Virus record (IMG/VR): IMGVR_UViG_3300005511_000027
Location: 1 to 41,462 of that record
Reading direction: 5' to 3' (one strand)
Source: a virus
Length of the DNA: 41,462 nt
The notes under the pieces are model-generated. The model did not search any database. It was given only the letters and a program-made list of their open reading frames with translations, and was not told where the DNA came from. Positions 7,345-31,376 of this stretch are shown here, in pieces. The position numbers were made by a program, and so were the translations under genes. Position 1 is the stretch's first letter. Each line of letters opens with the position of its first letter.

Positions 7345-7363
7345 GCACCCCAGTAGGGATTGG
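7345..7363 (+). repeat. Dispersed element copy 1 (GCACCCCAGTAGGG)
   Basis: Copy 1 of five same-orientation copies with consensus GCACCCCAGTAGGGTTCG; this copy ends ATTGG instead of TTCG. A second block, GGATCATCC, follows 32 bases after the A of AGTAGGG, at the same spacing as in copy 2. It lies between the start of a minus-strand small gene and the next core-direction gene, in a 271-base intergenic stretch that holds nothing else I recognise. Confidence 0.75.
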
Positions 7364-7453
7364 ACGGGCGGGTAGGGCGCCGGATCATCCAGGCCACACC
7401 CGATATGGCGAGGGTTCGGCCGGTAGCCACGGCACCATTCAAAGAGGTATCCC

Positions 7454-7747
7454 ATGGCTCACGCCCGCTCGTTCCGCACCTTCCTGTCCCTCGCAGCTGC
7501 TGCCTGCCTGATGGCCGCAGCCAGCACCTACTCGACCGTCACCTTCTACGTCTCCCGAACCTGCACCTTCGTTCGCGACACGATGCTCGACTTCCTGCAG
7601 GTGGCCGTGGCCAAGTTCGAGCAGCCGGCGCTGCGCCTCGTTGCCCGCCCGGTCGAGCTGCTCCAGGTCTGCGCCTACGCCCTGCGGCTGGCCAAGCGCG
7701 AACGCCCGCGCGTGACGCCCGGCTGGCGCATGTGCCCCTCCACCTGA
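7454..7747 (+). CDS. Hypothetical exported or membrane protein, 97 aa
   Basis: An AAAGAGG ribosome site precedes the ATG. The N-terminus (ARSFRTFLSLAAAACLMAAAS) reads as a signal peptide or single membrane anchor, followed by FYVSRTCTFVRDTMLDFLQVAV and a basic C-terminus. There is no known family. It follows repeat copy 1 and precedes an accessory membrane protein, so it may be part of the variable region rather than the phage core. Confidence 0.5.
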   Translation: MAHARSFRTFLSLAAAACLMAAASTYSTVTFYVSRTCTFVRDTMLDFLQVAVAKFEQPALRLVARPVELLQVCAYALRLAKRERPRVTPGWRMCPST

Positions 7748-7841
7748 CCTGATTCACCCTCTCCAAGGGCAAGCCGCTGCCGCAAGAGCAGCGCCGGGGG
7801 CAACCGGCAAAAATGTCCTCAGTGCCACGCTATGCTGCGGG

Positions 7842-8444
7842 ATGCCCATTGAAGATATTCGCTTTTTTTGGTCCATGGCTGCATCCGCAGGCATCGGCGC
7901 CACGGTGGCAGCCGTCATCGGCTACCTATTGGTCCGCAACTTTCTTTCCAGCTACCTGACTGAGAAAGGAAAGAACCTCGCGACCAAAGAAGACGTGGCG
8001 CGTATCACGCATGAGATCGAGGGCGTGAAGATCGGGTACACGCTGGTCGCTGAGCACTTCAAGGCCGAGCACCAGCTTCGCCTCGCGGCGCTCGACAAGC
8101 GATTGCAAGCGGCCCAAGAGGCATACACGTTGTGGCGGCAACTGGTTGAAAAGACCCATCACGAAGATGCCGGCTGGGCTGTGCTGGAGTGCCAGAGTTG
8201 GTGGGATCGCAATTGCCTGTATCTCGACGAAGCCGCACGCGATGCGTTCTCACGGGCCATTTTCAGCGCGGGTGGTCACAGAGGACTGCTCAGGAGTGGC
8301 GCATCCGCAGAACTCACGCACGACAACTGGAGGGACGTTGTCGCCGCAGGAGACATCATTGTCCGAAGCGCGGCCTTGCCAGGGCTTACCTCGATGGAAA
8401 GGCAAGGCGCAGCCGACGCGCTCGAGCGCAACGCAGGCACATGA
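7842..8444 (+). CDS. Accessory membrane-anchored protein with LATKEDV motif, 200 aa
   Basis: A transmembrane helix at about residues 9-30 is followed by a short segment (SSYLTEKGKNLATKEDVARI) that is widespread in small bacterial membrane proteins of prophages and defence-rich regions. A long helical/coiled-coil region (HFKAEHQLRLAALDKRLQAAQ) and a mixed C-terminal domain come next. A TATGCT hexamer ends six bases before the ATG, so the mRNA could be nearly leaderless; no clear -35 is seen and no ribosome site. Likely a cargo gene expressed from the lysogen, perhaps superinfection exclusion; that role is inference. Confidence 0.65.
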   Translation: MPIEDIRFFWSMAASAGIGATVAAVIGYLLVRNFLSSYLTEKGKNLATKEDVARITHEIEGVKIGYTLVAEHFKAEHQLRLAALDKRLQAAQEAYTLWRQLVEKTHHEDAGWAVLECQSWWDRNCLYLDEAARDAFSRAIFSAGGHRGLLRSGASAELTHDNWRDVVAAGDIIVRSAALPGLTSMERQGAADALERNAGT

Positions 8445-8460
8445 TCAGCGGACTCGTGGA

Positions 8461-8480
8461 GCACCCCCAGTAGGGTTCGC
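8461..8480 (+). repeat. Dispersed element copy 2 (GCACCCCCAGTAGGGTTCGC)
   Basis: Copy 2 of the five-copy element, 45 bases from its AGTAGGG to the small-terminase ATG. The second block, GGAATCATCC, lies at the same 32-base offset as in copy 1. It starts 16 bases after the stop of the accessory membrane gene. If the element is a promoter, this copy would drive the packaging genes. Confidence 0.8.
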
Positions 8481-8486
8481 AGCATC

Positions 8487-8767
8487 GGTACGCACCCGGA
8501 ATCATCCGGGTCCATGACAGACGCGCGCGTACCCGAAACAGACAAACTTGCGGCCCACTGGCCGACCATCGAAGCCGACTACCGAGCTGGCGTGAAGAGC
8601 GTTCGCCAGATCGCCAGCGAGCACGGTATCTCCGAGGGAGCCGTGCGGAAGAGGGCGAAGCTGCAAACGTGGACTCGCGACCTCTCAGCGCAGATTCAAG
8701 CCAAGGCTGAAGCGCTGGTACGCATGGAGGCGGTACGCAATGAGGTACGCATTAAGGAGCGCGTACC
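8487..8767. repeat. Cluster of six GGTACGC / GCGTACC sites (candidate packaging site)
   Basis: GGTACGCA occurs at 8487-8494, 8717-8724, 8732-8739 and 8744-8751, and the reverse complement GCGTACC at 8527-8533 and 8761-8767. Elsewhere in the window this heptamer turns up only singly and rarely. Inside the gene, all five valines in these sites use GTA, a codon avoided by the surrounding GC-rich genes, which points to selection on the DNA rather than the protein. Small-terminase genes of several phages (P22, SPP1) contain or adjoin their own pac site, so recognition by the terminase small subunit is the favoured reading. Confidence 0.6.
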
Positions 8768-9164
8768 TGATTCCGTGGTCGTGGATGCCAACGCCAATGT
8801 GGTCTACAAGGTCCAGATGGCCCACCGCACGGGCCTGACCAAGCTCTCGAGCCTCCGGGACTCGCTGCTGCTCGAACTCGAAACAGCGGCCACGTCAGAC
8901 CCTAAGCCCGCCGCGGCGCCGCACGGTACCGAGAACCCGCCTGAGGCCGCCACTGGCCTGGCGCTGCCGGTGCGCATTGAATCGCTGAAGAAGCTCGCCG
9001 AGGTCGACGAGAAGATCCGCCGCGGGGAGCGAGAGGCTTACGGCATCGACAAGCTCGTGCCGGACGAAGGCGGCATCGTGAGCAAGCTGAGTGACGCCGA
9101 GCGCGCCAGCCGCCTGGCCGCGCTGTTCGCCATCGCTCAGAAGAGGGCAGCCGATGGCGCCTGA
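8514..9164 (+). CDS. terS: Terminase small subunit (DNA recognition)
   Basis: A 216-residue protein directly before and overlapping the large terminase gene. The N-terminal domain (WPTIEADYRAGVKSVRQIAS, then EHGISEGAVRKRAKLQTW) is a helix-turn-helix of the kind that binds the packaging site in small terminases. A helical middle with VRMEAVRNEVRIKERV and a Pro/Ala linker follow, then a C-terminal oligomerisation-like helix (DAERASRLAALFAIAQKRA). The gene contains an unusual cluster of GGTACGC sites that may be its own DNA target. Identification rests on position and the HTH, since small terminases diverge strongly. Confidence 0.8.
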   Translation: MTDARVPETDKLAAHWPTIEADYRAGVKSVRQIASEHGISEGAVRKRAKLQTWTRDLSAQIQAKAEALVRMEAVRNEVRIKERVPDSVVVDANANVVYKVQMAHRTGLTKLSSLRDSLLLELETAATSDPKPAAAPHGTENPPEAATGLALPVRIESLKKLAEVDEKIRRGEREAYGIDKLVPDEGGIVSKLSDAERASRLAALFAIAQKRAADGA

Positions 9165-10689
9165 CATTTCCGCGCCTGAGCTCGTGAAGCTCATGCCGTT
9201 CCTCACGGACATGGAGCGCGCTGAGCTCGACATCCTGCTGACCGAAGGCCTGCCGCTGTGGATGGCGCAGGTCGGGCCGCAGTCGATGGCACTTGAATCG
9301 ATGGCCGATATCGTCTTCTACGGTGGCTCGGCCGGCGGCGGCAAGACCGATCTGCTGCTCGGCGCCTCGCTCACCCAGCAGGAGCACAGCATCATCTTCC
9401 GCCGCGAGTCCGTGCAGCTCGTGGGCATTGAAGAGCGCATGACCAAGATCCTGGGCACGCGCAAGGGCTACAACAGCCAGGACGGTGTCTGGCGGCTGCC
9501 CGGCAAGCGCGTGCTCGAGCTGGGCAGCGTGAAGGATCCCGACGACTGGATGAAGTACCAGGGCCGGCCGCACGACCTCAAGGCGTTCGACGAGATCACC
9601 CACTTCCTGGAGACCCAATTCCGCACGCTGATCGGCTGGATGCGCACCGACAACCCGAAGGTGCGCCAGCGCGTGATCTGCGCCGGCAACCCGCCGACCA
9701 GCAGCGAGGGCGAATGGGTCATCCGCTTCTGGGCGCCCTGGCTCGATCCGAAGCACCCGAACCCGGCCAAGCCCGGCGAACTGCGGTGGTTCGTGACGGA
9801 CGAACTGGGCAAGGACATGGAGGTGCCCGGGCCCGAGCCGGTGATGGTCGGCAAGGAGTTGATGACGCCCAAGAGCCGGACGTTCATCCCCTCATCGGTC
9901 GACGACAACCTCTACCTCAGCATGACCGGCTACAAGGCCACGCTGCAGTCGCTGCCGGAGCCGCTGCGCTCGCAGATGCTGCGTGGAGACTTCATGGCCG
10001 GCCGCAGCGACCCGGTCTGGCAGCTGATCCCCACCGAGTGGATCAAGGCCGCCCAGGCGCGCTGGAAGCAGAAGGAGAAGAAGGGCCCGATGTCGGCCGT
10101 CGGTCTCGACGTCGCGCGCGGTGGCATCGACAAGACCTCGGCCGCGCGCCGGCACGGCAGCTGGTTCGATGAGCTGTCGACCGTGCCCGGCATCGCCACC
10201 AACGACGGGCCGAAGGGCGCCGCCTTCGTGGTGGGTCTGATCCGCAACGGCGCGCCGGTGGCGGTGGACGCGATCGGCGTGGGCGTGTCGGTGCTCGACT
10301 TCCTGCGTGGCCTGAACGTGCTGTGTGTGCCCGTGGTCGGCTCGGAGAAGAGCGACATGATGGACAAGACCGGCAACCTGCGCTTCCGCAACAAGCGCGC
10401 CGAGATGTACTGGCTCATGCGCGAGGCGCTCGACCCCACGGCCGAAGACCCGATCGCGCTGCCGCCCGACGATGAGCTGCTGGCCGACCTCTGCGCCGTT
10501 CGCTACAAGGTCGTTCAGCTCGGCCGCTTCGCCGCCATCCTGGTCCGCGACAAGGACGAGATCCGGGAGGTGCTCGGCCGCTCGCCCGACAAGGGCGACT
10601 CCGTGGCCCAGACCTTCCTGTCCGACATCCCCGAGGTCGTGGCACTGCACGAAACCTCTCCACGTGAGGCGCCCGACTGGCGCTACTGA
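9154..10689 (+). CDS. terL: Terminase large subunit (packaging ATPase-nuclease)
   Basis: The motor that cuts and pumps phage DNA into the prohead. From the ATG that follows an AGAGGG site and overlaps the small subunit gene, the protein is 511 residues. Walker A is GGSAGGGKTD at residues 57-66; Walker B is LKAFDEITHF at 142-151. A coupling motif-like CAGNPPTSSEG follows. The C-terminal nuclease domain begins near AVGLDVARGGIDKT, with further acidic residues in VAVDAIGVG and in the late DELLADL segment. The length and the two-domain layout are normal for the family. Confidence 0.93.
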   Translation: MAPDISAPELVKLMPFLTDMERAELDILLTEGLPLWMAQVGPQSMALESMADIVFYGGSAGGGKTDLLLGASLTQQEHSIIFRRESVQLVGIEERMTKILGTRKGYNSQDGVWRLPGKRVLELGSVKDPDDWMKYQGRPHDLKAFDEITHFLETQFRTLIGWMRTDNPKVRQRVICAGNPPTSSEGEWVIRFWAPWLDPKHPNPAKPGELRWFVTDELGKDMEVPGPEPVMVGKELMTPKSRTFIPSSVDDNLYLSMTGYKATLQSLPEPLRSQMLRGDFMAGRSDPVWQLIPTEWIKAAQARWKQKEKKGPMSAVGLDVARGGIDKTSAARRHGSWFDELSTVPGIATNDGPKGAAFVVGLIRNGAPVAVDAIGVGVSVLDFLRGLNVLCVPVVGSEKSDMMDKTGNLRFRNKRAEMYWLMREALDPTAEDPIALPPDDELLADLCAVRYKVVQLGRFAAILVRDKDEIREVLGRSPDKGDSVAQTFLSDIPEVVALHETSPREAPDWRY

Positions 10690-10697
10690 GAACCACC

Positions 10698-12992
10698 ATG
10701 ACCGCATCCACCCTCGAACTGAATGGCTCTGGACCTCGCACGCCCGACAAGGACGCCGAAACCGGCGCGCTGACGCTCGACGAGTTCAGCCAGTACTTCC
10801 ACGAGATCGAAGAGCAGCCGGGCTGGCGCGCGAAGGCTGACCGCGAGATGGAGTACTACGACGGCAACCAGCTGAGCTCCGAGGTCCTGCAGCGACAGCA
10901 GCAGATCGGCATGCCGCCCGCCATCGAGCCGCTGATTGGGCCCGCCATCGATGCTGTGCTCGGGCTGGAGGCCAAGACGCGCGCCGACTGGCGCGTCCAG
11001 CCGGACGCCGAGGACCCGAGCGGCGATGCGGTCGCGAAGGCCCTCAACTTCAAGCTCAACAAGGCCGAGCGCAAGAGCAAGGCCGACAAGGCGTGCTCGG
11101 ACGCGTTCAAGACGCAGGTTGCCGCGGGCATCGGCTGGGTGGAGGTCTCCCGCAACCCCAATCCCTTTCAGTTCCCGTATCGGTGCAAGGCCATTCACCG
11201 CAACGAGATCTGGTGGGACATGCTGGCCACCGAGGAAGACATCTGCGACGCTCGCTACCTGATCCGGCGGCGCTGGACGCCCACGGCGCAGGCCAAGCTG
11301 ATGTTTCCCGACAAGAAGGACCTGATCGGGCAGGTGGTCAGCGGCTGGCCGATCTACGAAGGCCTCGGCACCACCGAAGGCGGCACTTCCACCGACCTGG
11401 TCAGCGCATGGGACCAGCAACGCGGCTGGAGTGTGGAAGAGCAGCAGTGGCGCGACATGACGGGCAAGCGCGTGTGCCTGTTCGAAGTCTGGTACCGGCG
11501 CTGGAACCGCGTGCTCGTGCTCAAGATGCCCGATGGCCGCGTGGTGGAGTACGACCGCAACAACAAGCTGCATGTGCAGTTCGTGGCCATCGGCGCCACG
11601 GTGCCGGAATGGGCGATCGTGCCGAAGATGCGCATGTCGATGTGGATGGGCCCGCACCGCCTCTCCGACATGCCCACGCCGTACCGGCATCAGAAATTCC
11701 CCTACGTGCCGTTCTGGGGCAAGAAGGAAGACCGCACCGGCGTGCCCTACGGCCTGGTGCGCGGCATGATGTACATGCAGGACAACGTCAACGCCACGAA
11801 CAGCAAGCTGCGTTGGGGCCTGTCGGCGGTGCGCACCGAGCGCACGAAGGGCGCCGTCAATGGGACCGACGAGCAGTTCCGCCGAGAGGTCGGGCGCGTC
11901 GATGCCGACATCATCCTCAACCAGGAGCACATGGCGAAGCCGGGCGCATCGTTCAAGGTGCAGCGAGACTTCGAGCTCAACCAGCAGCAGTACCAGATGC
12001 TGCAGGACTCGCGCGCCGGCATCCAGCGGGTCAGCGGCATCTCGCCCAGCCTGCAGGGCGCACAGGGCGACGCGAACTCCGGCATCCAGGAAGCCACGCA
12101 GCTCGAGCAGAGCACCCAGGCTCTGGCCGAGATCAACGACAACTTCGCCACGAGCCGCGCCGAGGTGGGCGATCTGCTGCTGTCGCTGATCGTCGAGGAC
12201 ATGATCGGCCGCGAAGAGACGGTTGTCATCAAGGGCGATCCGCTGCGCGAAGAGCAGGTGGTGAAGCTGAATTCGCCGGTTCAGGACGAAGACGGCATCA
12301 CCTACCTCGACAACGACGTCGAGCGCACCATGCTCAAGGTCGCTCTCAACGACGTGCCCAGCACGCCGAGCTACCGCAGCCAGCAGCTGTCGGCCATGTC
12401 CGAGGCCTTCAAGGCCATGCCGCCGCAGTTCCAGCAAGTGGCCATGCCGTACCTGATCGCGCTCATGGATCTGCCGAACCGCGAAGACATCATCAAAGCG
12501 GTGCGCGAGGCTGCCAAGCAGATGACGCCCGAGCAGATGCAGGAGCGCATCGACGAGGCGGTCAACCAAGCGCGCATGGCGGATGCCCGTGACCTCAAGC
12601 TGCAAGAGTTGTCGATGCGGTATCCGAAGGAGAAGCTGGACGCCGAGATCGGCGAGATCCTGGCCAAGTCCTTCAAGACCTACGTCGAGGGCCTGTATTC
12701 GGCCAACCAGACCGGCGCGACCATCGCGATGAACCCGGCGATCGCGCCGGTGGCCGATGCGGTGGCCGAGGCTGCAGGCTACCGGCCGCCGAACCCCGTC
12801 GGCGTCGATCCGAACCTGCCGGTGCCAGCTGGCCTGCCGTCCGCGGCCGTGGCGGACGTTGCTGGCACGCCGGGTGTCGCGGAGAACACCAGCCCAGCGC
12901 TGCCGCCCGTGCCGCCAGGCCCGGGGTCGCCGTTGGACGGCGCGGAGCGCGGCATTGAGACCGAGAGGGCTACAGACAACGTTCCCGCCTAA
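10698..12992 (+). CDS. Portal protein, P22 type
   Basis: The dodecameric ring through which DNA enters and leaves the capsid. At 764 residues it has the length and features of the P22 gp1 family: WRAKADREMEYYDGNQ near the start, PPAIEPLIGPAIDAVLGLEA, a KIAVNIAV-like helix region (ACSDAFKTQVAAGIGWVEV), a long clip/stem with GMMYMQDNVNATNSKLRWGL, and a Gln/Glu-rich C-terminal barrel (QEATQLEQSTQALAEINDNF). The start ATG follows a short gap after the terminase. The last 70 residues are Pro/Ala-rich. Its stop overlaps the stop of the convergent accessory gene, which suggests that gene was inserted exactly at the portal end. Confidence 0.9.
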   Translation: MTASTLELNGSGPRTPDKDAETGALTLDEFSQYFHEIEEQPGWRAKADREMEYYDGNQLSSEVLQRQQQIGMPPAIEPLIGPAIDAVLGLEAKTRADWRVQPDAEDPSGDAVAKALNFKLNKAERKSKADKACSDAFKTQVAAGIGWVEVSRNPNPFQFPYRCKAIHRNEIWWDMLATEEDICDARYLIRRRWTPTAQAKLMFPDKKDLIGQVVSGWPIYEGLGTTEGGTSTDLVSAWDQQRGWSVEEQQWRDMTGKRVCLFEVWYRRWNRVLVLKMPDGRVVEYDRNNKLHVQFVAIGATVPEWAIVPKMRMSMWMGPHRLSDMPTPYRHQKFPYVPFWGKKEDRTGVPYGLVRGMMYMQDNVNATNSKLRWGLSAVRTERTKGAVNGTDEQFRREVGRVDADIILNQEHMAKPGASFKVQRDFELNQQQYQMLQDSRAGIQRVSGISPSLQGAQGDANSGIQEATQLEQSTQALAEINDNFATSRAEVGDLLLSLIVEDMIGREETVVIKGDPLREEQVVKLNSPVQDEDGITYLDNDVERTMLKVALNDVPSTPSYRSQQLSAMSEAFKAMPPQFQQVAMPYLIALMDLPNREDIIKAVREAAKQMTPEQMQERIDEAVNQARMADARDLKLQELSMRYPKEKLDAEIGEILAKSFKTYVEGLYSANQTGATIAMNPAIAPVADAVAEAAGYRPPNPVGVDPNLPVPAGLPSAAVADVAGTPGVAENTSPALPPVPPGPGSPLDGAERGIETERATDNVPA

Positions 12993-14020
12993 ACGAGTGT
13001 CAACTGAAAAGCGCCGGCGTTATTGAAGTCCATCGCCCGGAGGCCGATTTCCGGTAGTTCCATTGACATTCTCATCGCCGATGTGAAGGTGCCCGCGAAG
13101 GTCTGCCCGGTGAGGTGTCCGACAGCCTCCCAAATGACATGCATGCGGAAGTCCACAGGTGCGATGCTGTGCTTCCACGTATTGATATCGATGGTTGGTG
13201 TCCCCTTCGGGATCACGAATTCGCGTGCAGATCGAAACGTCGTTGGTTTCGCGGGATCAGTCGAAAGGGTGTTGTCATCGGTCAAGAGTTCGACGACGTT
13301 CAGCCCGATCTGCTCGTTCATCGCCTGCAAAACCGTGATCCCGACCTCCGACCTATAGGTGACTGCAATTCCACCCTCAAGCCTGCGGGCAGCGAAGCCG
13401 TCAACAATGTTGACCGTCATCTGATCGACCGGCGCAACCGCGGGTTCAAGCCGGTGCACCCGCAAGCGGCCGCTGCTGATCCGCACCCGGGACCGCAGAC
13501 CAGGGCCGAGTGGTTCTCCGTAGTCGATCACAACGTCGGGGAAGTCACGAAGAATTCCTTCCGGACCGAGTGTGTTGGTGATGGCGCCGAGTCGCTTCGG
13601 AATATCTTCGTAGGCGAAGTCCAGTACAGCTGCGCTGTCCGGCCCGCGATTGGTGACGTAGAGCCGAAAATGCCGACCGTTCGTGACAAGAAAATAGGCG
13701 GCACGAACTTCTGCGTGGTTGGCGTATGACCACGCCTGAGCCGCTACCGCAGCGTCCAGCGGAACGGACGGTGCCTTGGCCTCTACCACCCATCGAACTC
13801 TTCGGCCGGCTTCAAGGATGTAGTCGGCCTTGCCTCGCAGGGGCGGATCCGTGGCCTTCTCTCGTCCAAGCTGCACTTGACTGTAGGCCAGATTGAGCTC
13901 TCGCAGCACGTTGTGCTCCGTTCCGGTTCTATATCCCAACTTCCTGATGAGAGGTGCGATCACCTCCTCGCGAACATCCGTCTCGTTCATCGCGTCGAAA
14001 ACAGGCGCTATCAGTTCCAT
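12989..14020 (-). CDS. Stand-alone HsdR N-terminal-domain (PD-(D/E)XK) protein, accessory
   Basis: A 343-residue protein resembling only the N-terminal nuclease domain of type I restriction HsdR. Seen are VREEVIAPLIRKLGYRTGTE, GKADYIL (Asp of the PD motif), WVVEAKAP (the ExK pair) and AYFLVTNGRHFRLY, in family order. No helicase motor follows; the C-terminal half (VDQMTVNIVDGFAARRLEGG) is unassigned. The ATG at 14020 has GGAGGG before it; longer frames run antisense into the scaffold gene and were not used. It lies opposite to all neighbours between portal and scaffold, has lower GC, and is followed by repeat copy 3. A defence or superinfection role is inferred. Confidence 0.75.
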   Translation of the reverse strand: MELIAPVFDAMNETDVREEVIAPLIRKLGYRTGTEHNVLRELNLAYSQVQLGREKATDPPLRGKADYILEAGRRVRWVVEAKAPSVPLDAAVAAQAWSYANHAEVRAAYFLVTNGRHFRLYVTNRGPDSAAVLDFAYEDIPKRLGAITNTLGPEGILRDFPDVVIDYGEPLGPGLRSRVRISSGRLRVHRLEPAVAPVDQMTVNIVDGFAARRLEGGIAVTYRSEVGITVLQAMNEQIGLNVVELLTDDNTLSTDPAKPTTFRSAREFVIPKGTPTIDINTWKHSIAPVDFRMHVIWEAVGHLTGQTFAGTFTSAMRMSMELPEIGLRAMDFNNAGAFQLTLV

Positions 14021-14056
14021 GGGTTGTCCCTCCTGCTCACAGCGTAGCGCACTGCA

Positions 14057-14080
14057 GCACTCCCCCCAGTAGGGTTCGCC
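14057..14080 (+). repeat. Dispersed element copy 3 (GCACTCCCCCCAGTAGGGTTCG)
   Basis: Copy 3, between the divergent start of the HsdR-N gene and the scaffold gene, 119 bases before the scaffold ATG. It shares a longer 3' flank with copy 4: TTCGCCC, then TCCTT, TCG and CACGAT, with GAT 35 bases after AGTAGGG in both. Confidence 0.8.
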
Positions 14081-14186
14081 CGCTCGTTCCTTCCTCGACA
14101 CGATCACGCCCAGCAACGCCATCCCGGCGAAGCAACCACCAAGACCTTTGGCGGCCACGGCGAGATGTGGCAAGGAACTGGAACAC

Positions 14187-15275
14187 ATGGCAAATATCGA
14201 GCAGTTTTTGGAGAAGCACGCGGATGCCGACGGCAACGTGAGCGAGGAAGCGATGGCCCGCCTTCTGACGGGCGGCATCGAGGGCGATACCGCGGCAGCT
14301 CCGGCTGTGGCGGACACCGGCGCGCCCGCCGCCGGCACCGAAGCACCGACCGACGCCCCCGCTGCCGCTCCGGCTGCACCAGCACCCGCACCTGCTGCGC
14401 CCGCACCGGCTCCCGCGCCGACGGATGCACCGGCAGCTGCACCAGCTGCAACCACCGCGCCTGCACCTGCAGCAGCCCCGGCTGCCGCTGAAGCCGACTC
14501 GGTGATCCTGGCGAAGGATGGAAAGCACACCATCCCGTACCAGAAGCTGGTCAGCGCGCGGGAGGAAGCGAAGTCTGCAACGGCACGGGCCGAGCAGGCA
14601 GAGCGCGACGCGGCGCAACTGCGGGAGCAGCTGGCGAAAGCCACCGTCGCTCCGGCAGCTGCGCCGGGGCCGGCCGCGGCACCCGCTGCGGCCTCCGACC
14701 TTTTCGGTGACTTCTCCGATCAGGCGTTGAAGAAGGGCGTTGACAGTCTGGTCGCGGATGCGCTGGGCAAGTTCAAGTCCGAGATCGCCGCCGACATCGG
14801 CCCGGTCAAGAAGCAGGTCGCTGAGAGCGCTGCGGAAACGCACTTCCGGACCATCTACACGAAGCACCCCGACACGGATTCCATCGTCGAGAGCGCCGAG
14901 TACCAGCAATGGCTCGCGTCGCAACCGTCGCTTGTGCGCCAGACGTACGAGACCGTGTTGGCCAAGGGTACGGCGTCGCAGGTGATCGAGATGCTGGACA
15001 CCTACAAGGCTGCTCAACCCGCCACCGCGCCCGCGCCGGCGCCTGCACCTGCCGCGGCCCCCGCCCCGGCAGTCGACCCGCAGAAGAAGGCCGACGAGGT
15101 CATTGCCTCGGTCAAGCCGAAGACGCCCACCAGCCTGACGGATGTTCCGGCCGGCTCGCAGGTGCATCACGACGAAGCCGAAGCAATGGCCGAAATGAGC
15201 CCGCTCGACCTCATGGCCAAGTTCGAGGGCAAGACGCCCGCGCAGATCGAAGCCTTGATGCGAAAGCTGGTGTGA
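14187..15275 (+). CDS. Probable capsid scaffold protein
   Basis: A 362-residue protein directly before the coat gene, the usual place for a scaffold. I start at the ATG with AAGGA ten bases before it (MANIEQFLEKHADADGNVSE); an in-frame TTG 39 bases earlier has no ribosome site. Two long Ala/Pro tracts (about residues 35-105 and 275-300) flank a coiled-coil region (REEAKSATARAEQAERDAAQ) and a helical middle (DFSDQALKKGVDSLVADALG). The C-terminus (DLMAKFEGKTPAQIEALMRK) is a helical end of the sort that contacts coat. No protease motif is visible. Confidence 0.75.
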   Translation: MANIEQFLEKHADADGNVSEEAMARLLTGGIEGDTAAAPAVADTGAPAAGTEAPTDAPAAAPAAPAPAPAAPAPAPAPTDAPAAAPAATTAPAPAAAPAAAEADSVILAKDGKHTIPYQKLVSAREEAKSATARAEQAERDAAQLREQLAKATVAPAAAPGPAAAPAAASDLFGDFSDQALKKGVDSLVADALGKFKSEIAADIGPVKKQVAESAAETHFRTIYTKHPDTDSIVESAEYQQWLASQPSLVRQTYETVLAKGTASQVIEMLDTYKAAQPATAPAPAPAPAAAPAPAVDPQKKADEVIASVKPKTPTSLTDVPAGSQVHHDEAEAMAEMSPLDLMAKFEGKTPAQIEALMRKLV

Positions 15276-15298
15276 CCAATCCCGCCACGGAGTTCTGA

Positions 15299-16582: not shown

Positions 16583-16647
16583 TGCAACGGGCCGGCTCCG
16601 GCTGGCCTGCTTGACGCAACCCATTCAACCCAATTCAGGAGCCTCAC

Positions 16648-17127: not shown

Positions 17128-17150
17128 CCCATCCCTCCTTGAACCCCTTC

Positions 17151-17177: not shown

Positions 17178-17196
17178 CCATCCAAAGGAGCAAGAG

Positions 17197-24785: not shown

Positions 24786-25816
24786 TGGCAACTATTCCCC
24801 CCGGTGGCATCGTCACCATCCCTGATCCGACGAGCGGCGGTGCCGGTGCGCCGGTCACCACCACGCAGATCATCAACGCCATGTGGGCGAATGCGCAGAG
24901 CAAGTCCGAATCGGGCGACCTGCGCATCGGGCAGGCCATCGCCCTGGCGGATCCTGCGCCGCACGTGCTCACGCCGACGCTGGACACCACCTACCTGCCG
25001 CCGCTGAAGCCCGACCTGCCGCCGGACAATCCGAACGATGCGGAGGCGATGTACAACACGCAGCGCGACCAGATGATCAACCTGATCACCGACTCGTGGG
25101 CGGACTTCATCACCACCTACTTCCCGAATCCGGGCTTCTACAACGATGCGCTGGCCTGGTGCCATACGGCGTTCACCGCGGGCGGTACCGGCCTGAATCC
25201 CGTCGTCGAGCAGCAGCTGTGGGAGCGCGGTCGGGCCCGGATCCTGTCCGACAGCCAGCGCGCGGAAGACGAAGCCATGGCCACCTGGGCGAACCGCCGC
25301 TGGCCAGTCCCGCCGGGCGCGCTGACCAACCAGGTCAACCAGATCCGCCTGGATGCCGGCCGCAAGCTGGCCGAGCAGAGCCGCGACATCTCGATCAAGT
25401 CTTTCGACACCGAAATCGAGAACGTGCGCTTCGCCGTGAAGCAGGTGCTCGACCAGCGCAAGGTCGCGCTCGACGCCACCGGCGACTACATCAAGACCAT
25501 CATGATGGGACCGCAAACGGCCATGTCGCTGGCCACCGGTCTCGCGAACATTCGGTCGGAGACGTCGCGGGCATTGGTCGCCCTGTACAGCGCGGAGTCC
25601 GCCGCGCTGCAGCCGCGGGTGCAGCTGGCCATCGCCGACGCCGACCTCAAGATGCGTGGCGAGCAAGCGAATCTGCAGGCGCAGATGAATTCGCTGGAAG
25701 CAAAGGTGCGGGCTGCCATCGCGGGCGCACAGCTCGTCGGCCAGCAGGCGGCCGCAGGCCTCAATGCGATCAACTCAAGCGCTTCGATCAGCGGGTCAGA
25801 CACCACCTCAAACTGA
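24785..25816 (+). CDS. Tail-module structural protein with helical C-terminus, 343 aa
   Basis: The ATG overlaps the previous stop (TGATG) with GGAGGA just upstream. The N-terminal half is Pro-rich (IPPGGIVTIPDPTSGGAGAP). The C-terminal half is strongly helical and Ala/Gln-rich (IENVRFAVKQVLDQRKVALD, LKMRGEQANLQAQMNSLEAK, LVGQQAAAGLNAI), suggesting a long coiled coil. This type is frequent in Burkholderiales phages, without a named function. It is the last gene before an accessory insertion. Confidence 0.65.
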   Translation: MATIPPGGIVTIPDPTSGGAGAPVTTTQIINAMWANAQSKSESGDLRIGQAIALADPAPHVLTPTLDTTYLPPLKPDLPPDNPNDAEAMYNTQRDQMINLITDSWADFITTYFPNPGFYNDALAWCHTAFTAGGTGLNPVVEQQLWERGRARILSDSQRAEDEAMATWANRRWPVPPGALTNQVNQIRLDAGRKLAEQSRDISIKSFDTEIENVRFAVKQVLDQRKVALDATGDYIKTIMMGPQTAMSLATGLANIRSETSRALVALYSAESAALQPRVQLAIADADLKMRGEQANLQAQMNSLEAKVRAAIAGAQLVGQQAAAGLNAINSSASISGSDTTSN

Positions 25817-25839
25817 GCACCAACCTGTGTGAAGATCAA

Positions 25840-25867
25840 TTGGCGCTTCTCGGCGCCACTTACTAAT
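25840..25867 (+). promoter_or_regulatory. Possible promoter for the accessory gene, overlapping a GGCGC palindrome
   Basis: TTGGCG is followed after 15 bases by TACTAA. The spacer contains the inverted pair GGCGC/GCGCC. The spacing is shorter than ideal, so the promoter reading is weak. Confidence 0.25.
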
Positions 25868-25883
25868 CACACACGAGGGCCTC

Positions 25884-26486
25884 ATGGAGCGGAATCAAGC
25901 GGAAAAAACTCGGGCGGAGCTGGAAAAATTGGATGGAAGCATTCGATGGGCGAACAGGGCAGTTATTTTCTGGATTGGGCTATGGGGTGTTGTCTATTTC
26001 GGCTGGTTTTGGTTCAACCGAGGCGCCAAGCCTCCTCTAACGCCCGCCAGCTGGGGCGTGATGGGAGATTTCTTCGGAGGCTTTCTAAATCCTGTTGTCG
26101 CCTACTCTGCTTTTTTCTGGCTGACAAAGTCAGTGCGGCTGCAAAAGGAGGAGCTTGCTGAGACGCGGCAAGCGCTGGCGGATTCAGCCAAGGCCCAGGA
26201 TGAGCAGGTCAAGTTGGCAAGCAAGAGTGTTCGGCTAAATGCCCTGAACACACTCTCCAATTCAATCATGACCGAAGTGGCGACGCAAAGAACGCTGTTG
26301 CAGTTCTACGTTGATCAACTGAGAGCATTGAACCGGTCTCTCTATGACATTGAAGGGAACTACACGCATGAAAGTGACTTCAAGTCCAAGATCGCGGCGC
26401 TCAATCAAGTCATTTCCGATCGAATGCTGGAGCGAAATGTTTACGAACGTGAGATCAAGCAGATCTTGGAGACACACGTCGGTTAA
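25884..26486 (+). CDS. Accessory two-TM coiled-coil protein with GDFFGGF motif, 200 aa
   Basis: The first transmembrane helix is at about residues 26-44 and the second at 67-82, where WGVMGDFFGGFLNP leads into VVAYSAFFWLT. A long cytosolic coiled coil follows (RLQKEELAETRQALADSAKA). The same motif order, GDF-x2-GF-x2-P, FFWL, Q-x-EEL-x4-QAL, recurs in the minus-strand gene at 30645-31325. GC content is clearly lower than the neighbours, and an AGGG ribosome site precedes the ATG. Proteins of this layout are common in defence-rich regions of bacterial genomes. The role is inferred as cargo, possibly superinfection exclusion. Confidence 0.65.
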   Translation: MERNQAEKTRAELEKLDGSIRWANRAVIFWIGLWGVVYFGWFWFNRGAKPPLTPASWGVMGDFFGGFLNPVVAYSAFFWLTKSVRLQKEELAETRQALADSAKAQDEQVKLASKSVRLNALNTLSNSIMTEVATQRTLLQFYVDQLRALNRSLYDIEGNYTHESDFKSKIAALNQVISDRMLERNVYEREIKQILETHVG

Positions 26487-26511
26487 TCAATGAAATAGCG
26501 CGATCGTGGTC

Positions 26512-26530
26512 GCACCCCAGTAGGGTTCGC
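26512..26530 (+). repeat. Dispersed element copy 4 (GCACCCCAGTAGGGTTCGC)
   Basis: Copy 4, 25 bases after the accessory membrane gene and 59 bases (from AGTAGGG) before the ATG of the next structural gene. Its 3' flank matches copy 3 (TTCGCCC, TCCTT, TCG, CACGAT) with the same 35-base offset to GAT. Confidence 0.8.
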
Positions 26531-26577
26531 CCCGGGCTCCTTGCGTCGGCACGATGCCGGCATTCAAGGAGCTTCTC

Positions 26578-26985
26578 ATGACTGTCCAGCGATCCACTGC
26601 GGTGCGCAATGCCCGCCTAGACGCCATCGAAACTACGATCGGCGCATCCGCCAAGGTGCAGATTCGCACCGGCGCGCAGCCGGCAAACTGCGCGACAGCC
26701 GCTAGCGGCACGCTGCTCGTCGAGTGGGCGCTGGGTGCTGACTGGGCGGCAGTTGCATCGGGCGGGGTGAAGGCCTTCAACTCCACACCTGTGGCCGGCA
26801 CCGCAGTGGGCACCGGCACCGCAGCGCACTACCGCATCGTCGACAGCGCCGGCACCACCTGCCACGAGCAGGGCACTGTCACGGCCACAGGCGGCGGTGG
26901 CGACGTCACCATCGACAACACGTCGATCGCAAGCGGGCAGACGGTCAACATCAACAGCTGGACCGTGACTGAGCCGGGGGCGTAA
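26578..26985 (+). CDS. Tail-module structural protein, 135 aa (paralogue B)
   Basis: I chose the ATG preceded by CAAGGAG; another in-frame ATG 24 bases earlier lies without a ribosome site inside the flank of repeat copy 4. The plan copies the gene at 20420-20854: helical start with STAVRNARLDAI, then KVQIRTGAQPANCATAASGTL, a TAAHYRIVDSAGTT strand and a GQTVNINSWTVTEP end. The two are paralogous virion proteins at either side of the fibre genes. The stop overlaps the next ATG (TAATG). Confidence 0.7.
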   Translation: MTVQRSTAVRNARLDAIETTIGASAKVQIRTGAQPANCATAASGTLLVEWALGADWAAVASGGVKAFNSTPVAGTAVGTGTAAHYRIVDSAGTTCHEQGTVTATGGGGDVTIDNTSIASGQTVNINSWTVTEPGA

Positions 26986-27878
26986 TGGCTGAGATCACTG
27001 CCGATCGCGTCTACGAGACCAGCACGACCACCGGGACGGGCACCTACACGCTCGCCGGGGCGATTGCCGGCTACCGCGCGTTCTCGGCCGTGTGCGCCAA
27101 CAGCGACACCGTGCGGTGCTTTGTCGAAGAGGTGGATGCCAACGGCGTGCCCAACGGCGGCTGGGAGATCGGCATCTACACCTGGGGCACCGGCGGCACG
27201 CTGGCGCGGACCACCGTCGAGGCCAGCAGCAATGCTGGCGCCGCCGTGAGTTGGGCGACTGGCACCCGACGCATTGGACTGGGCGTGACGGCTTCGAGAC
27301 TTGCTCTGATATCGCCGTCGCCCGCACTGGCTCTGGCTGACTACGCATGGGTCAATCAACTGGCCGCGACAGCGACGGAAGCATCGAGCCGGATAACGAT
27401 GGTTGGCGGGACCGCGGCGGCGGACAGCTGGAACATCTTGAAAAAATCGCTGACCCTCGGCGCAGGACAGACCTTAAAGCTCACAGCATATGGTGCTGGA
27501 CAAGGCGCTGCATCCCCAGCAAATCAGGGGATGGGCCTCATCCTGCGCGAGTCGGGAACGGGGAAGTTCGTCGTATTCATGTGGCAGCCGAACGCCTCTT
27601 CGGCGGGTGGCGCGTTCGTGTGGACCAATCCCACGACTTTCGCTTCTACGGTGATCGCCTTTCCGCTGTTCACGCCAAAGATTTCGCCCAAGGTCTTCAC
27701 GGCCCGCTATACCGGCACGCAGTGGTATTTCGCCTGGAGCGTCGATGGTCTGTTTTTCACCGAGTTCGGGCCTTACACAATCTCCTCGTTTTCGCCAAAT
27801 GAAGCTGGATTCGGCGTGAATAGCGTGTCCAGCACATCGGCGGCCGTGCTATTCGCATCTCGCCTTGAGGTGGTCTAG
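26985..27878 (+). CDS. Tail/fibre protein with phage N-terminal adaptor domain, 297 aa
   Basis: The N-terminal 100 residues (ITADRVYETSTTTGTGTYTL, AGYRAFSAVCANSDTVRCFV, VDANGVPNGGWEIGIYTW, LARTTVEASSNAGAAVSW) are a very common phage tail domain found at the start of fibre-like proteins. The C-terminal 150 residues are lectin-like beta (GMGLILRESGTGKFVVFMW, ARYTGTQWYFAWSVDGLFF). This is a plausible receptor-binding component. The next gene starts immediately after its stop. Confidence 0.7.
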   Translation: MAEITADRVYETSTTTGTGTYTLAGAIAGYRAFSAVCANSDTVRCFVEEVDANGVPNGGWEIGIYTWGTGGTLARTTVEASSNAGAAVSWATGTRRIGLGVTASRLALISPSPALALADYAWVNQLAATATEASSRITMVGGTAAADSWNILKKSLTLGAGQTLKLTAYGAGQGAASPANQGMGLILRESGTGKFVVFMWQPNASSAGGAFVWTNPTTFASTVIAFPLFTPKISPKVFTARYTGTQWYFAWSVDGLFFTEFGPYTISSFSPNEAGFGVNSVSSTSAAVLFASRLEVV

Positions 27879-28607
27879 GTGCTTGGTTCCCGCCCAATCG
27901 GATCCATCCCGCTCGGCAGCAGTGCGGTAGGGAGTTCCGCGACTGGCGGGACAGTCTCGGCGAGCCAGACTGCGGGCGTGACATCGCAGGGCGCTTCTCT
28001 ACAGGTCGCGATTGCGATCTCGAGTGCACAGACGGCGGCGCCAACTACCCAATCTGCCGCACTGCTGGGGAGCTTCACCGCTGCGGCCGCGCAGACCGCT
28101 GCGCCGACAGCCCAATCAGCCTCATTGGGGAGCGTGCCTCGCGTCTCAGCAACGCAGACCGCCGAAGCGACCGGCCAAGCAGCGGCCGCTTCGGTACAGG
28201 CTCTCGTCGTCGCTGCGCAGACCGCCGTTGCCACCACGCAAGGTGCAGCGCTCGGCCGCGCGCTCTCCGCAAGCGCCGACCAGCTGGCCGACGCTGTGAG
28301 CCGAACCGCCGAGTTGCTCGCGCGCATCCAGGCGCAAGCGGAGCAGACGGCCGCAGAAACGTCGCAGGCCGTCGAACTCACTGCAGAGGAAAACAGCCTC
28401 GCTGCCGCGCAGACCAACGCACCGACGACGCAAGTAGCTCTGGTTCGGCACGCCTACGTCTTCGAGCGCAACGAGCGCACGCTGGACGTGGCCGGCGAGC
28501 GACGCGGCTGCATGCCCTTCCCAGAGTCGCGGGGCGTCGCAGTTGCAGCCGAGCAGCGCATCGTTTCCCTGCATGGCGAGCGCCGGCGCATCGCCTTCAC
28601 CGATTGA
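27879..28607 (+). CDS. Repeat protein with 21-residue QTA-x4-Q repeats, 242 aa
   Basis: The GTG start directly follows the previous stop. Residues 28-188 hold eight copies of an Ala/Thr/Gln-rich unit such as AQTAAPTTQSAAL, with the QT (or QL) pair at residues 30, 51, 72, 93, 114, 135, 156 and 178: seven exact 21-residue steps apart from the last (22). A second Gln seven residues later recurs in most copies. A short Gly/Ser start and a basic C-terminal domain (FERNERTLDVAGERRGC) flank the array. Three heptads per unit would suit a trimeric fibre shaft. No family recognised. Confidence 0.7.
   Translation: MLGSRPIGSIPLGSSAVGSSATGGTVSASQTAGVTSQGASLQVAIAISSAQTAAPTTQSAALLGSFTAAAAQTAAPTAQSASLGSVPRVSATQTAEATGQAAAASVQALVVAAQTAVATTQGAALGRALSASADQLADAVSRTAELLARIQAQAEQTAAETSQAVELTAEENSLAAAQTNAPTTQVALVRHAYVFERNERTLDVAGERRGCMPFPESRGVAVAAEQRIVSLHGERRRIAFTD
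27960..28442 (+). repeat. In-frame 63-bp repeat array in the fibre-like gene
   Basis: Eight degenerate 63-base units (21 codons each; the last step is 66 bases) marked by CAGAC(C/G/T)GC-type codons for Gln-Thr-Ala. Drift between units is mostly synonymous or conservative. Arrays like this can change length by recombination. Confidence 0.7.
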
Positions 28608-28616
28608 AAGACCGCC

Positions 28617-28955
28617 ATGGCCACGCTCAAACCCACCACCTACGTTGTCGATTCCAAGGGCGACTACGTGATCGACCGGGACACCGACGCGCAGCTCGAC
28701 TACTCCTTCGACTGGGCCGCCTGGCTGGCGCTCAACCCTGGCGACGCGATCGCCGATGCGGAGTTCATCGTCGATCCCTCGCTGACCGTCGTCCAGTCGT
28801 CGGTCGATGCCACCACCGCCACCGTCTGGCTCACCGGCGGCACGAAGCCCGCGACGGGCCCGAACAAGCTGCGGGTGACATGCCGCATCACCACCACCAA
28901 CACGCCACCCCGGATCGATGACCGATCCATCTTTCTGAGGATTGTTGACCGATGA
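28617..28955 (+). CDS. Small Ig-like tail/fibre adaptor protein, 112 aa
   Basis: A beta-rich protein (TYVVDSKGDYVIDRDTDAQL, GDAIADAEFIVDPSLTVVQS, TVWLTGGTKPATGPNKLRVT, RSIFLRIVDR) of a kind found directly after fibre genes and before the lysis cassette in many phages, often called fibre-tail adaptor. It overlaps the next gene by four bases (ATGA). Confidence 0.65.
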   Translation: MATLKPTTYVVDSKGDYVIDRDTDAQLDYSFDWAAWLALNPGDAIADAEFIVDPSLTVVQSSVDATTATVWLTGGTKPATGPNKLRVTCRITTTNTPPRIDDRSIFLRIVDR

Positions 28956-29317
28956 GCCCGCACTCTGTGATCACCGAAATCAACGCTCCGATCCTCAAGG
29001 CGGGCACGGCCATCACGGCCGCGGTCGGCGCGAACACGAACACCGTGGAGAACGCGGCCATCCAGGTCGCCACCACGCTCGTGAAAACCAATGCCGACCC
29101 GTGGTGGTTCTGGTGGGTGGTCTCGATCCCCTGGGGACCAATCGCGTCTTTCCTGGCAGCGATCTACACCGCCATGCTTGCGAGCGAGTGGATGTGGAAG
29201 AAGGTGTTGAAGCCGCTGCTGCAGCGCTGGGGCTGGATGAAGCCCGCGCCGCGCCGCGTCTTCACTGCGCAGGAGATCGCCGACGCGGCCGCGCGGCTCG
29301 AGGAAGAGGCCGCCTGA
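28952..29317 (+). CDS. Membrane protein of the lysis cassette, putative holin or holin-like, 121 aa
   Basis: One strong hydrophobic stretch, DPWWFWWVVSIPWGPIASFL followed by AAIYTAMLASEW, spans about residues 50-80 and could cross the membrane once or twice. A basic helix and an acidic tail (TAQEIADAAARLEEEAA) follow. It lies immediately before the lysozyme, where holins often sit. No holin family is recognised, and the small protein after the lysozyme is an alternative holin. Confidence 0.55.
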   Translation: MSPHSVITEINAPILKAGTAITAAVGANTNTVENAAIQVATTLVKTNADPWWFWWVVSIPWGPIASFLAAIYTAMLASEWMWKKVLKPLLQRWGWMKPAPRRVFTAQEIADAAARLEEEAA

Positions 29318-29832
29318 TGAACCCGATCGCCAAGCGCGTCTCCGTCGCCGTGCTGTCGCTGAGCGCGGTGGGGTTCGCCGCCTGGAAGGCTGACGAGCAG
29401 TTCGTGGCGGCGCCGATGATCCCGACGAAAGGCGACGTGCCCACCATCGGCTTCGGCTCGACGAAGTACGAGGACGGCCGGCGCGTGGCACTGACCGACC
29501 CGCCCATCACGCGCGATCGCGGCGAGGTCCTCGCGCGCAACCTCATGAGCCAGGATGAGGCGGTGTTCCGCGCCAGCCTGCCGGGTGTGAAGCTGCACCC
29601 CGAGGAATACGACCTCTACATGAACTTCGTCGGCCAGTACGGCACTGGCAACTGGCGCGGCTCCAGCATGCGGCGCGACCTCCTGGCCGGCAACTACGCC
29701 GCCGCGTGCCACGACCTGCTGAAGTACCGCTTCGCGGCCGGCTACGACTGCTCGACCCCGGGCAACAAGCGCTGCCTGGGCGTTTGGACCCGGCAGCTCG
29801 AACGCCACGACAAGTGCATGGCGGTCCAATGA
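29317..29832 (+). CDS. SAR-type endolysin, GH24 lysozyme
   Basis: A 171-residue muramidase. The N-terminal helix (RVSVAVLSLSAVGFAAW) is a weak, Ala/Ser/Gly-rich signal-anchor-release segment, so it can be exported by Sec without a holin pore and later released. The lysozyme core follows: DEQF then PTIGFGST, with Glu27 as the probable catalytic acid. The C-terminal part (YDLYMNFVGQYGTGNWRGSS, LLKYRFAAGYDCSTPGNKRC) is typical of R-type phage lysozymes. Several Cys may lock the membrane-bound form. The ATG overlaps the previous stop (TGATG). Confidence 0.85.
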   Translation: MNPIAKRVSVAVLSLSAVGFAAWKADEQFVAAPMIPTKGDVPTIGFGSTKYEDGRRVALTDPPITRDRGEVLARNLMSQDEAVFRASLPGVKLHPEEYDLYMNFVGQYGTGNWRGSSMRRDLLAGNYAAACHDLLKYRFAAGYDCSTPGNKRCLGVWTRQLERHDKCMAVQ

Positions 29833-30008
29833 ACTACGGCCGCAAGTTCTGGCTCGCCGTCGCGGCATTCGCCACCTTCACCGCGCTGCTGGTGGTCGGA
29901 AAGATCGACCAGGGCGCCTACGTGACCCTGTCCCTGTTCGCGCTCGGCGGGTATCTAGGCGCGAACGTGATCCAGAAGGCCACCGCAAAGAAAGCCACCG
30001 ATGCCTGA
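29829..30008 (+). CDS. Small membrane protein, probable holin, 59 aa
   Basis: A two-helix membrane protein: KFWLAVAAFATFTALLVVG and YVTLSLFALGGYLGANVI, with basic ends. Size and layout suit a class II holin or pinholin that would serve the SAR lysozyme. The ATG overlaps the lysozyme stop (ATGA), and its end overlaps the spanin gene by eight bases. Confidence 0.6.
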   Translation: MNYGRKFWLAVAAFATFTALLVVGKIDQGAYVTLSLFALGGYLGANVIQKATAKKATDA

Positions 30009-30540
30009 TCTGAAGTCGCTCGCCATCTACGTGCTGCTGGCCATGACCATCCTGCTGGGCGTCGCCAGCTGCGCGAGCACCACGATGCTGAAGGCCACGC
30101 GCACCGCGCTCGCCGTGCAGAACAACGCTATGAAGGCGCAGAAGGAGGAGGCCGCCGATCGCCTCCGCGCCCTCAACGCCAGTGTGCTGGCGCAGCAGAA
30201 GCAGCTCGATGAACACTACCTCGCCGGAGAGAAGAATGACCGCACGAACCTCACCAAGATCACCACTCTTCAATCTGATCTGCGCAAGCTGCGCGTTGCT
30301 TCTCAGCAGCTGCTCGATGCTGCCGCCGCGGCAGGAATCACCGGGCTTGGTGGTGGAGCCCAACAAGGTGGTGCTTCCGCCGGTGCCGTCGCTGGTGCTG
30401 AAAACCGAGCCGAAGCCTATCGGCTGGTTCCAGCAGCGCCGGATCAAGAGGCTGACGATGACGCCTTCGACGCCGACCAAATAAACGCAGCCTATGCTTC
30501 GTGCCGCGCAGATGCGCTGAAGCTCAGGCTCAAGAAGTGA
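30001..30540 (+). CDS. Rz: Inner-membrane spanin (Rz-like)
   Basis: A 179-residue protein with one N-terminal membrane helix (IYVLLAMTILLGVAS, residues 9-23) and a long periplasmic coiled coil (MKAQKEEAADRLRALNASVL, KLRVASQQLLDAAAAAG). This is the plan of the i-spanin that pulls the outer membrane to the inner one in the last step of lysis. A second reading frame inside the gene encodes the o-spanin. The membrane helix is followed by SCAS, so Cys24 could even be lipidated, which would be odd for an i-spanin. The C-terminus is acidic and ends KLRLKK. Confidence 0.8.
   Translation: MPDLKSLAIYVLLAMTILLGVASCASTTMLKATRTALAVQNNAMKAQKEEAADRLRALNASVLAQQKQLDEHYLAGEKNDRTNLTKITTLQSDLRKLRVASQQLLDAAAAAGITGLGGGAQQGGASAGAVAGAENRAEAYRLVPAAPDQEADDDAFDADQINAAYASCRADALKLRLKK
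30236..30484 (+). CDS. Rz1: Outer-membrane spanin lipoprotein (Rz1-like), nested in Rz gene
   Basis: An 82-residue protein in a different frame and wholly inside the i-spanin gene. The ATG has GGAGAG seven bases upstream. A signal peptide (PLFNLICASCALLLSSC) ends in the lipobox LSSC, followed by a Pro-rich mature part (SMLPPRQESPGLVVEPNKVV, LPPVPSLV). This is the standard nested Rz/Rz1 arrangement of lambdoid phages. Confidence 0.8.
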   Translation: MTARTSPRSPLFNLICASCALLLSSCSMLPPRQESPGLVVEPNKVVLPPVPSLVLKTEPKPIGWFQQRRIKRLTMTPSTPTK

Positions 30541-30644
30541 GGAGGTGGGGCAGCGGCGGGGGCTCGACGCTTTGCAGATGCGCTGACCGAGATCGAGACC
30601 ATGAGCGCGGCCGATGGTTCTTGCCGCTCGACGCTCGTTCCTGA

Positions 30645-31325
30645 CTAGCTCGGTGCCACGTTTGGCTCTGAATCGGAAAATTGGAGGTGCCTGTTCTGGG
30701 TCCTTGTCATAAAAAAAGCGGCTTCTCCGGGACTTCCCATCGAGTCCACATATCCGATGCTGACTTTCGCCGTGGCTTCAACGGGTATGACGAAGTTATA
30801 GATTTCTCTTTGCTCTGACTTGAACAACGCCCTCCCGTCATCGATGACATATGACCCTGGGAGTTCGATTTGCAGTCGAAATTTCGTCGCCGTGGGCCCA
30901 ATATTAACGATCGAAACTGCGAAACTGGAGACGGTTCCCGCGCCATCGGTAGTTACGCTTGACTGTTGAGGAATGAATTTCGGGCGAGCTGCCTCACGAC
31001 GCAGCCTGCGTTCTTCCGCTAAAGCATCGGTTTCTTGTTTCATCTGCTCTCGCGCAACCAATACCAGTTGCGTTTGCTGCTCGACCGAGTTCTTCAATTC
31101 TTCAGCTTGAAGGTGAAGCGCCTGCGTGCTGTGTCGCAGTTCCTCGCCTTGCTGCATATAGCCGAGGACCAGCCAGAAAAACGCGAGGGGGGCGGAGAAA
31201 CCAGCAATGAAGTCACCCCACTCGTTGACCTTTGTAGGAAGATCTTGTGTGCTCAACATCAAGATTGCGACGCCAATCCAGAGCACTGAAACGCCAATCC
31301 CCATGGTGAATTTTCTATCTCGCAT
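30645..31325 (-). CDS. Accessory membrane protein with GDFIAGF motif and periplasmic/cytosolic beta domain, 226 aa
   Basis: The start was chosen at the ATG with GAGGAGA just upstream (MRDRKFTMGIGVSVLWIGVA). TM1 is residues 8-25; WGDFIAGFSAPLAFFWLV (36-53) leads TM2; a coiled coil follows (YMQQGEELRHSTQALHLQAE, LVLVAREQMKQETDALAEER). The C-terminal 90 residues are beta-rich (FAVSIVNIGPTATKFRLQIE). The GDF-GF-P, FFWL, EEL, QAL order matches the accessory protein at 25884-26486. Lower GC and opposite orientation within the late region mark it as cargo. Function inferred only: exclusion or defence. Confidence 0.65.
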   Translation of the reverse strand: MRDRKFTMGIGVSVLWIGVAILMLSTQDLPTKVNEWGDFIAGFSAPLAFFWLVLGYMQQGEELRHSTQALHLQAEELKNSVEQQTQLVLVAREQMKQETDALAEERRLRREAARPKFIPQQSSVTTDGAGTVSSFAVSIVNIGPTATKFRLQIELPGSYVIDDGRALFKSEQREIYNFVIPVEATAKVSIGYVDSMGSPGEAAFFMTRTQNRHLQFSDSEPNVAPS

Positions 31326-31357
31326 TTCTTCTCCTCGTTTCGAGTGATTGTGCCTGT

Positions 31358-31376
31358 GCACCCCCTGTAGGGTTCG
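31358..31376 (+). repeat. Dispersed element copy 5 (GCACCCCCTGTAGGGTTCG)
   Basis: Copy 5 sits in the divergent gap between the accessory membrane gene and the first ejection-protein gene, 62 bases before that ATG. It has CTGTAGGG where the others have CAGTAGGG, and GAATG at the 35-base offset seen in copies 3 and 4. Confidence 0.75.

Follow-up and report, generated by a model that had tools for sequence, protein, structure and literature searches.

Within the window analysed here, a 41,462-nucleotide (nt) stretch of viral DNA (IMG/VR record IMGVR_UViG_3300005511_000027, positions 1 to 41,462), a short element recurs five times between the genes of a prophage. We propose, with a probability of roughly 0.8, that it is an activator-dependent late promoter served by the phage protein phrog_8117 together with host RNA polymerase-sigma70. 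A phage-specific late promoter, which had been among the functions suggested in the first-pass annotation of this DNA, is strongly supported by the bipartite structure of the element (an upstream dyad site and a -10 box), the fixed spacing of its -10 box and of putative leaderless ATGs, its strand bias and its co-occurrence with one phage DNA-binding protein. More tentatively, at somewhat less than even odds, the element may be part of a two-lock late switch, not described before, that a broad group of temperate phages would share. In such a switch phrog_8117 would be the activator, its promoter targets having diverged together with the protein; at the small terminase gene (terS), and partly at the holin gene, a hairpin would let only leaderless late mRNA be translated; and the promoters would be boundaries where defence and conversion genes gather. 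A search of the open literature, with many older phage papers outside its scope, found no account of the element, of its protein, of late promoters in the F116 group or of a leaderless terS.

Four of the copies match the pattern GCACCCCAGTAGGGTTCG with no more than three mismatches, against a chance expectation of 0.05 and with 0 of 100 shuffled sequences reaching four; the fifth, CACCCCCTGTAGGGTTCG at 31358–31375, was recovered with the core CCCCNGTAGGG. All five lie on the plus strand and outside confidently predicted genes, as had been noted at first sight, and only the second and third needed small corrections of position (best alignment starts 8462 and 14061). The conserved downstream flank that had also been remarked upon is real, and corresponds to a sigma70-like -10 hexamer placed exactly 22 nt 3' of the 13-base core in every copy (Table 1). 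No match to a canonical sigma70 promoter was found at copies 1 to 3; TTCG overlaps the -35 position. At copy 2 the ATG of terS stands merely 8 nt past the hexamer. The ATG at 7454, after copy 1, is preceded by the purine-rich AAAGAGG, and the gene in scaffold position after copy 3 starts at 14187 with a Shine-Dalgarno sequence. For copies 4 and 5 the ATGs chosen by mechanical calling of open reading frames (ORFs), 26554 and 31401, fall in or at the -10 boxes, and the true starts are likely the in-frame ATGs at 26578, preceded by AAGGAG, and 31428, which also has a Shine-Dalgarno sequence.

The element is not private to the window prophage. A pattern scan of IMG/VR was followed by a scan of 50 whole records with the pattern and with a reversed control pattern. 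The element was matched in 41 of them, many with 4–7 copies and nearly all on one strand, and in records with that many copies the control gave 0–1 matches. Phages of Variovorax, Acidovorax, Delftia, Comamonas and Pseudomonas (F116, USP_18) each carry several copies, nearly all on the late-gene strand; CF418 carries none. The nearest cellular relatives are Variovorax prophages, with others in Acidovorax, Delftia, Comamonas, Corticibacter, Lampropedia and Parazoarcus. The middle four bases of the site differ among phages (CCTG, CCAG, CCAC, CGTC, AGCA, GGCA) and are consistent within one phage.

Alignment of 94 non-redundant elements, gathered without any demand on a -10 box, gave C-CCCC-[T/A]-G-TA-[G/A]-GG-TT-C-G, about 20 unconserved bases, [A/G]A[A/C][A/C][A/C]T and then GC-rich sequence. 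The hexamer stands at a fixed spacing, with A in 79% of the elements at position 2 and T in 78% at position 6. A wider set of 184 elements was selected for the presence of a -10 box, so that only its ATG statistics are informative; the spacing from core to -10 is 22 nt in 143 of its members. If -7 is assigned to the hexamer T, the midpoint of the partial (imperfect) dyad ACCC-N5-GGGT falls at about -42, and the dyad overlaps the -35 position; a site centred near -42 is in the position of a class II activator.

In the wider set, ATG was counted 72 times at offsets 34–36, against about 2 counts at each neighbouring offset, and GTG or TTG just 5 times. An ATG lying 6–8 nt after the hexamer and opening a reading frame of 60 codons or more was found in 68 of the 184 elements; a Shine-Dalgarno sequence accompanies two of these 68 (background 14%), and 40 of them precede terS, 7 a holin-like gene of 107 amino acids (aa). 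Among the remaining elements the starts are mostly 50–70 nt away, with a Shine-Dalgarno sequence in 45 of 95. Only the class devoid of a Shine-Dalgarno sequence keeps a fixed distance to the start codon; elsewhere this distance varies while the -10 spacing stays constant, as expected of a promoter that starts transcription at a constant position and not of an element of the RNA leader. An ATG so close to the -10 box and without a Shine-Dalgarno sequence points to leaderless late mRNAs, which are predicted mainly for terS (including that after copy 2 of the window) and holin.

At terS the sequences that flank the -10 box are complementary, and the 3' arm ends 0–3 nt before the AUG. The arm sequences differ among phages, yet match each other within each phage: own arms fold at -9.6 kcal/mol, versus -6.2 ± 0.39 kcal/mol when 3' arms are swapped between phages, and 0 of 500 swaps were as strong. 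Leadered elements show nothing of the kind, and the fold at terS far exceeds theirs in strength (p 3e-14). With the -10 box inside the inverted repeat, only read-through RNA would fold into a hairpin against the AUG, and translation of terS could not start on it; a true late mRNA, starting at the AUG and without the 5' arm, would be translatable. The predicted layout has a proven analogue in T4, where genes e, soc, 49 and I-TevI have inhibitory hairpins: the late promoter is contained in the DNA for the 5' strand of the hairpin, and long early transcripts fold, whereas late ones do not (PMC3014915). In T4 the late promoters depend on gp55 and TATAAATA, and the messages have a Shine-Dalgarno sequence, whereas in the temperate phages studied here a sigma70-like -10 box lies in the loop, a leaderless late mRNA is predicted and the genes concerned are terS and some of the holin genes.

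When the proteins of 24 genomes were clustered, a single non-structural family, phrog_8117, annotated as of unknown function, appeared in 22. As for the two exceptions, USP_18 has phrog_8117 by profile, in the rest of its record, and CF418, devoid of the element, is devoid of phrog_8117 too. All 23 of the compared genomes that bear the element, 22 on the evidence of clustering and USP_18 on that of the profile, encode it upstream of terS. An order-wide search for the family, not made via the portal, gave three genomes besides the central one; two of them have elements, four on the plus strand and none on the minus in one, two and none in the other, against a chance rate of 0.11 matches per 20 kb. 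The AlphaFold2 model of the protein (mean predicted local distance difference test, pLDDT, 87) consists of a winged helix-turn-helix, a three-strand beta segment and a 56-residue helix. With Foldseek it resembles the DNA-binding domain of the DtxR/IdeR repressors weakly, over 61 residues (root-mean-square deviation 1.6–1.7, best E 6e-3), and no Pfam family passed the cut-off in a scan of the protein. We rejected its membership of the DtxR/IdeR family because just this domain matches and the sequence matches are marginal (E 0.004); in place of a metal-binding dimerisation domain, the rest of phrog_8117 is the three-strand segment and the long helix. TAGGGTTcG / TAGGGTTAG, which forms the right half of the element, resembles the iron-box half site of IdeR/DtxR, TTAGGTTAG, possibly by coincidence, and it is to these same repressors that the predicted DNA-binding domain is nearest.

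Taken together, phrog_8117 is likely the activator that reads the element. The block CC-N4-TA[A/G]GGnT (CCCC[A/T]GTAGGGTTCG in the window) would be its binding site, probably as a dimer; from this position, overlapping a poor -35, the protein would recruit RNA polymerase-sigma70 to the -10 box 22 nt downstream by class II activation. Transcription would start 6–8 nt past the -10 box, at the AUG itself in the case of terS and holin, giving leaderless mRNA, and at the other promoters the start would be followed by a short leader with a Shine-Dalgarno sequence. With a promoter at the head of every late operon, foreign genes could come to lie just upstream, even in antisense, and the core genes would not be silenced.

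Among 55 non-redundant portal-related loci, the element is present in 29 of the 38 that bear phrog_8117 versus 0 of the 17 that do not (Fisher p 4.6e-8), a test that overstates the independence of the loci since those without phrog_8117 are on average more distant relatives. This limit weighs against our proposal, as do several other results. Nine of the 38 phrog_8117-bearing loci have no obvious element under the pattern used (L148, L258 and L286 show diverged versions), and none is seen with the weakest of the three genomes from the family search (E 8e-4, the detection limit) or with a further, remote member of the family in G053. In the recognition helix, the residue that follows the conserved acidic pair associates strongly in raw counts with base 5 of the site (R-T 26, H-A 13), but the protein tree reduces this to 2–3 independent changes, short of significance; we regard it as a lead to binding and have not used it as proof. 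For the hairpin, counts of pairs in a fixed register were not above those of shuffles because the loop length varies, and the arm-swap test was used instead.

The nine loci and the lack of phylogenetic significance in the residue-base covariation speak for a rival reading, in which the element is a late promoter served by a host regulator or by another phage protein and phrog_8117 is merely linked to it. We consider this unlikely, given that a host factor would not explain why the middle four bases of the site vary among phages and stay constant within each, and that no other non-structural family is found in essentially all element-bearing genomes. Nor was a sigma factor or RNA polymerase domain found among the window proteins scanned, and for that reason we rejected the idea that the site is read by an RNA polymerase or sigma factor of the phage. 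A conserved block in an mRNA leader, acting at the RNA level in translation or antitermination, would account for the fixed strand, the constant start-codon distance in one class and the hairpin beside the AUG. It would not account for a distance that is constant only where a Shine-Dalgarno sequence is lacking, nor for a hexamer that bears the sigma70 -10 signature at fixed spacing, and there is little probability left to it. The first-pass annotation had also compared the element with mycobacteriophage stoperators, operators at which a bound repressor ends transcripts, and with start-associated sequences, which are short and stand immediately ahead of start codons. Both comparisons are ruled out by the one-strand bias and by geometry, as 36 nt or more, with the -10 box among them, separate the conserved block from the start codon.

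That annotation had further taken the element to mark every accessory-gene insertion, perhaps as a linker that recombines cargo in and out. Within the window each of the five copies does follow an accessory gene, and at the portal-scaffold junction of related phages the cargo upstream varies, but the rule does not hold in general. Among 107 elements in 23 genomes, 35, about a third, come directly after a same-strand core gene, 22 after a minus-strand gene and 50 after a rare plus-strand gene, the classes being approximate as the gene calls were made in this analysis. At the portal-scaffold junction, the element lies 2–51 bp after the portal gene in cargo-free phages (G024, G033, G040, G030, G049, L150, L171, L311) and 0.3–4.8 kb after it in phages with cargo, where it is usually 57–305 bp before the scaffold gene; G009 and G042 are among the exceptions, with further genes between element and scaffold gene. 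In most phages the element keeps near the scaffold gene, be there no cargo upstream (0 bp) or several kb of it, unrelated from phage to phage. No matching copy was found on the other flank of the cargo, which has the element on one side only, and recombination would leave the fixed-spacing -10 box and ATG unexplained. A recombination or insertion site, in spite of the order seen in all window copies, is accordingly the least probable explanation, and a very improbable one.

If the element is a late promoter, its link with cargo, which is real but indirect, would reflect where insertions are tolerated: as each late operon would start with its own promoter, nothing essential would be broken just upstream, and passenger genes would tend to settle there. 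The window gene that resembles a restriction-enzyme N-terminus (HSDR_N_2) sits within the structural operon; in G001 and G005 this slot is taken by a related gene. In a Variovorax phage (G002), a candidate defence protein (AbiJ_NTD4 / PADLOC PDC-S32) is encoded upstream of the terS promoter, at 32336–33196 on the minus strand.

Activator-dependent late promoters are well known from P2 (Ogr/Delta) and Mu (C), with several per genome, an activator site upstream of the -10 box and one small phage DNA-binding protein working with the host polymerase. The element is like them in its multiple late positions and in its upstream site and -10 box, and probably in its use of an activator with host polymerase; it is unlike them in its site, CC-N4-TAGGGTT centred near -42, and in the winged helix with a long C-terminal helix of phrog_8117. 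Lambda has one regulator, Q, encoded just upstream of the late operon, and a single late promoter with antitermination. The phrog_8117 gene is similarly placed, whereas the promoters proposed here are multiple along the late region. Morons, or lysogenic-conversion genes, are accessory genes between late operons, often antisense, and the cargo described here resembles them, the AbiJ_NTD4/PDC-S32 protein at the terS slot of G002 included; unlike in morons, a recognisable and specific putative promoter marks where the slot meets the core genes. The proposal would assign a function, that of late activator with its operator, to an abundant phage family listed without one, and to uncharacterised genes, of which F116p37 is an example. 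From it follow transcription start sites that can be tested in temperate phages of Variovorax, Acidovorax, Delftia and Pseudomonas, and the prediction of leaderless mRNAs for packaging genes, unusual among proteobacterial phages. The element can also serve as a search key, as it is in the stretch just upstream of a copy that accessory genes, known defence families included, turn up, and these slots may be good places to seek new defence genes.

Table 1. Putative late promoters, candidate activator and accessory genes in the window (positions in nt; promoter functions are predicted).
Feature	Position	Strand	Description
Late promoter copy 1	7345..7388	+	core 7348-7360; -10 GATCAT 7383-7388; leader of about 60 nt to 97-aa ORF at 7454
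Late promoter copy 2 (terS)	8462..8514	+	core 8465-8477; -10 AATCAT 8500-8505; ATG 8514, predicted leaderless
Inverted repeat around -10 box of copy 2	8494..8511	+	ACCCGG-aatcat-CCGGGT; RNA fold -11.7 kcal/mol; arm-swap test
Late promoter copy 3 (portal-scaffold junction)	14061..14104	+	core 14064-14076; -10 CACGAT 14099-14104
Late promoter copy 4	26512..26555	+	core 26515-26527; -10 CACGAT 26550-26555
Late promoter copy 5	31358..31402	+	core 31362-31374; -10 AAGAAT 31397-31402
Candidate activator phrog_8117	3977..4483	+	168 aa; N-terminal winged helix-turn-helix and long C-terminal helix; upstream of terS
Accessory gene(s) upstream of copy 1	6116..7182		phrog_19542 protein on +; short ORF on -
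Accessory gene upstream of copy 2	7842..8444	+	200-aa protein with hydrophobic N-terminal stretch
Accessory gene upstream of copy 3	12989..14020	-	HSDR_N_2 (restriction-enzyme N-terminus-like) protein, antisense to late genes
Accessory gene upstream of copy 4	25884..26486	+	membrane-type 200-aa protein, phrog_8999
Accessory gene upstream of copy 5	30645..31325	-	membrane-type 226-aa protein, antisense

Portal relatives with neither phrog_8117 nor the element include L137, L164, L166, L174, L254, L267, L268, L272-L274, L295, L298, L304, L316 and L322. Towards the end of the window, a gene for an SOS-response-associated peptidase (SRAP) lies at 39433–40140 on the plus strand, and a protein of the same annotation is encoded late in F116. 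The sole Rfam match in the window is a tRNA gene at 41403–41462 on the minus strand, inside which the window ends, the match being cut off at its 5' end; this gene is a likely prophage attachment site.

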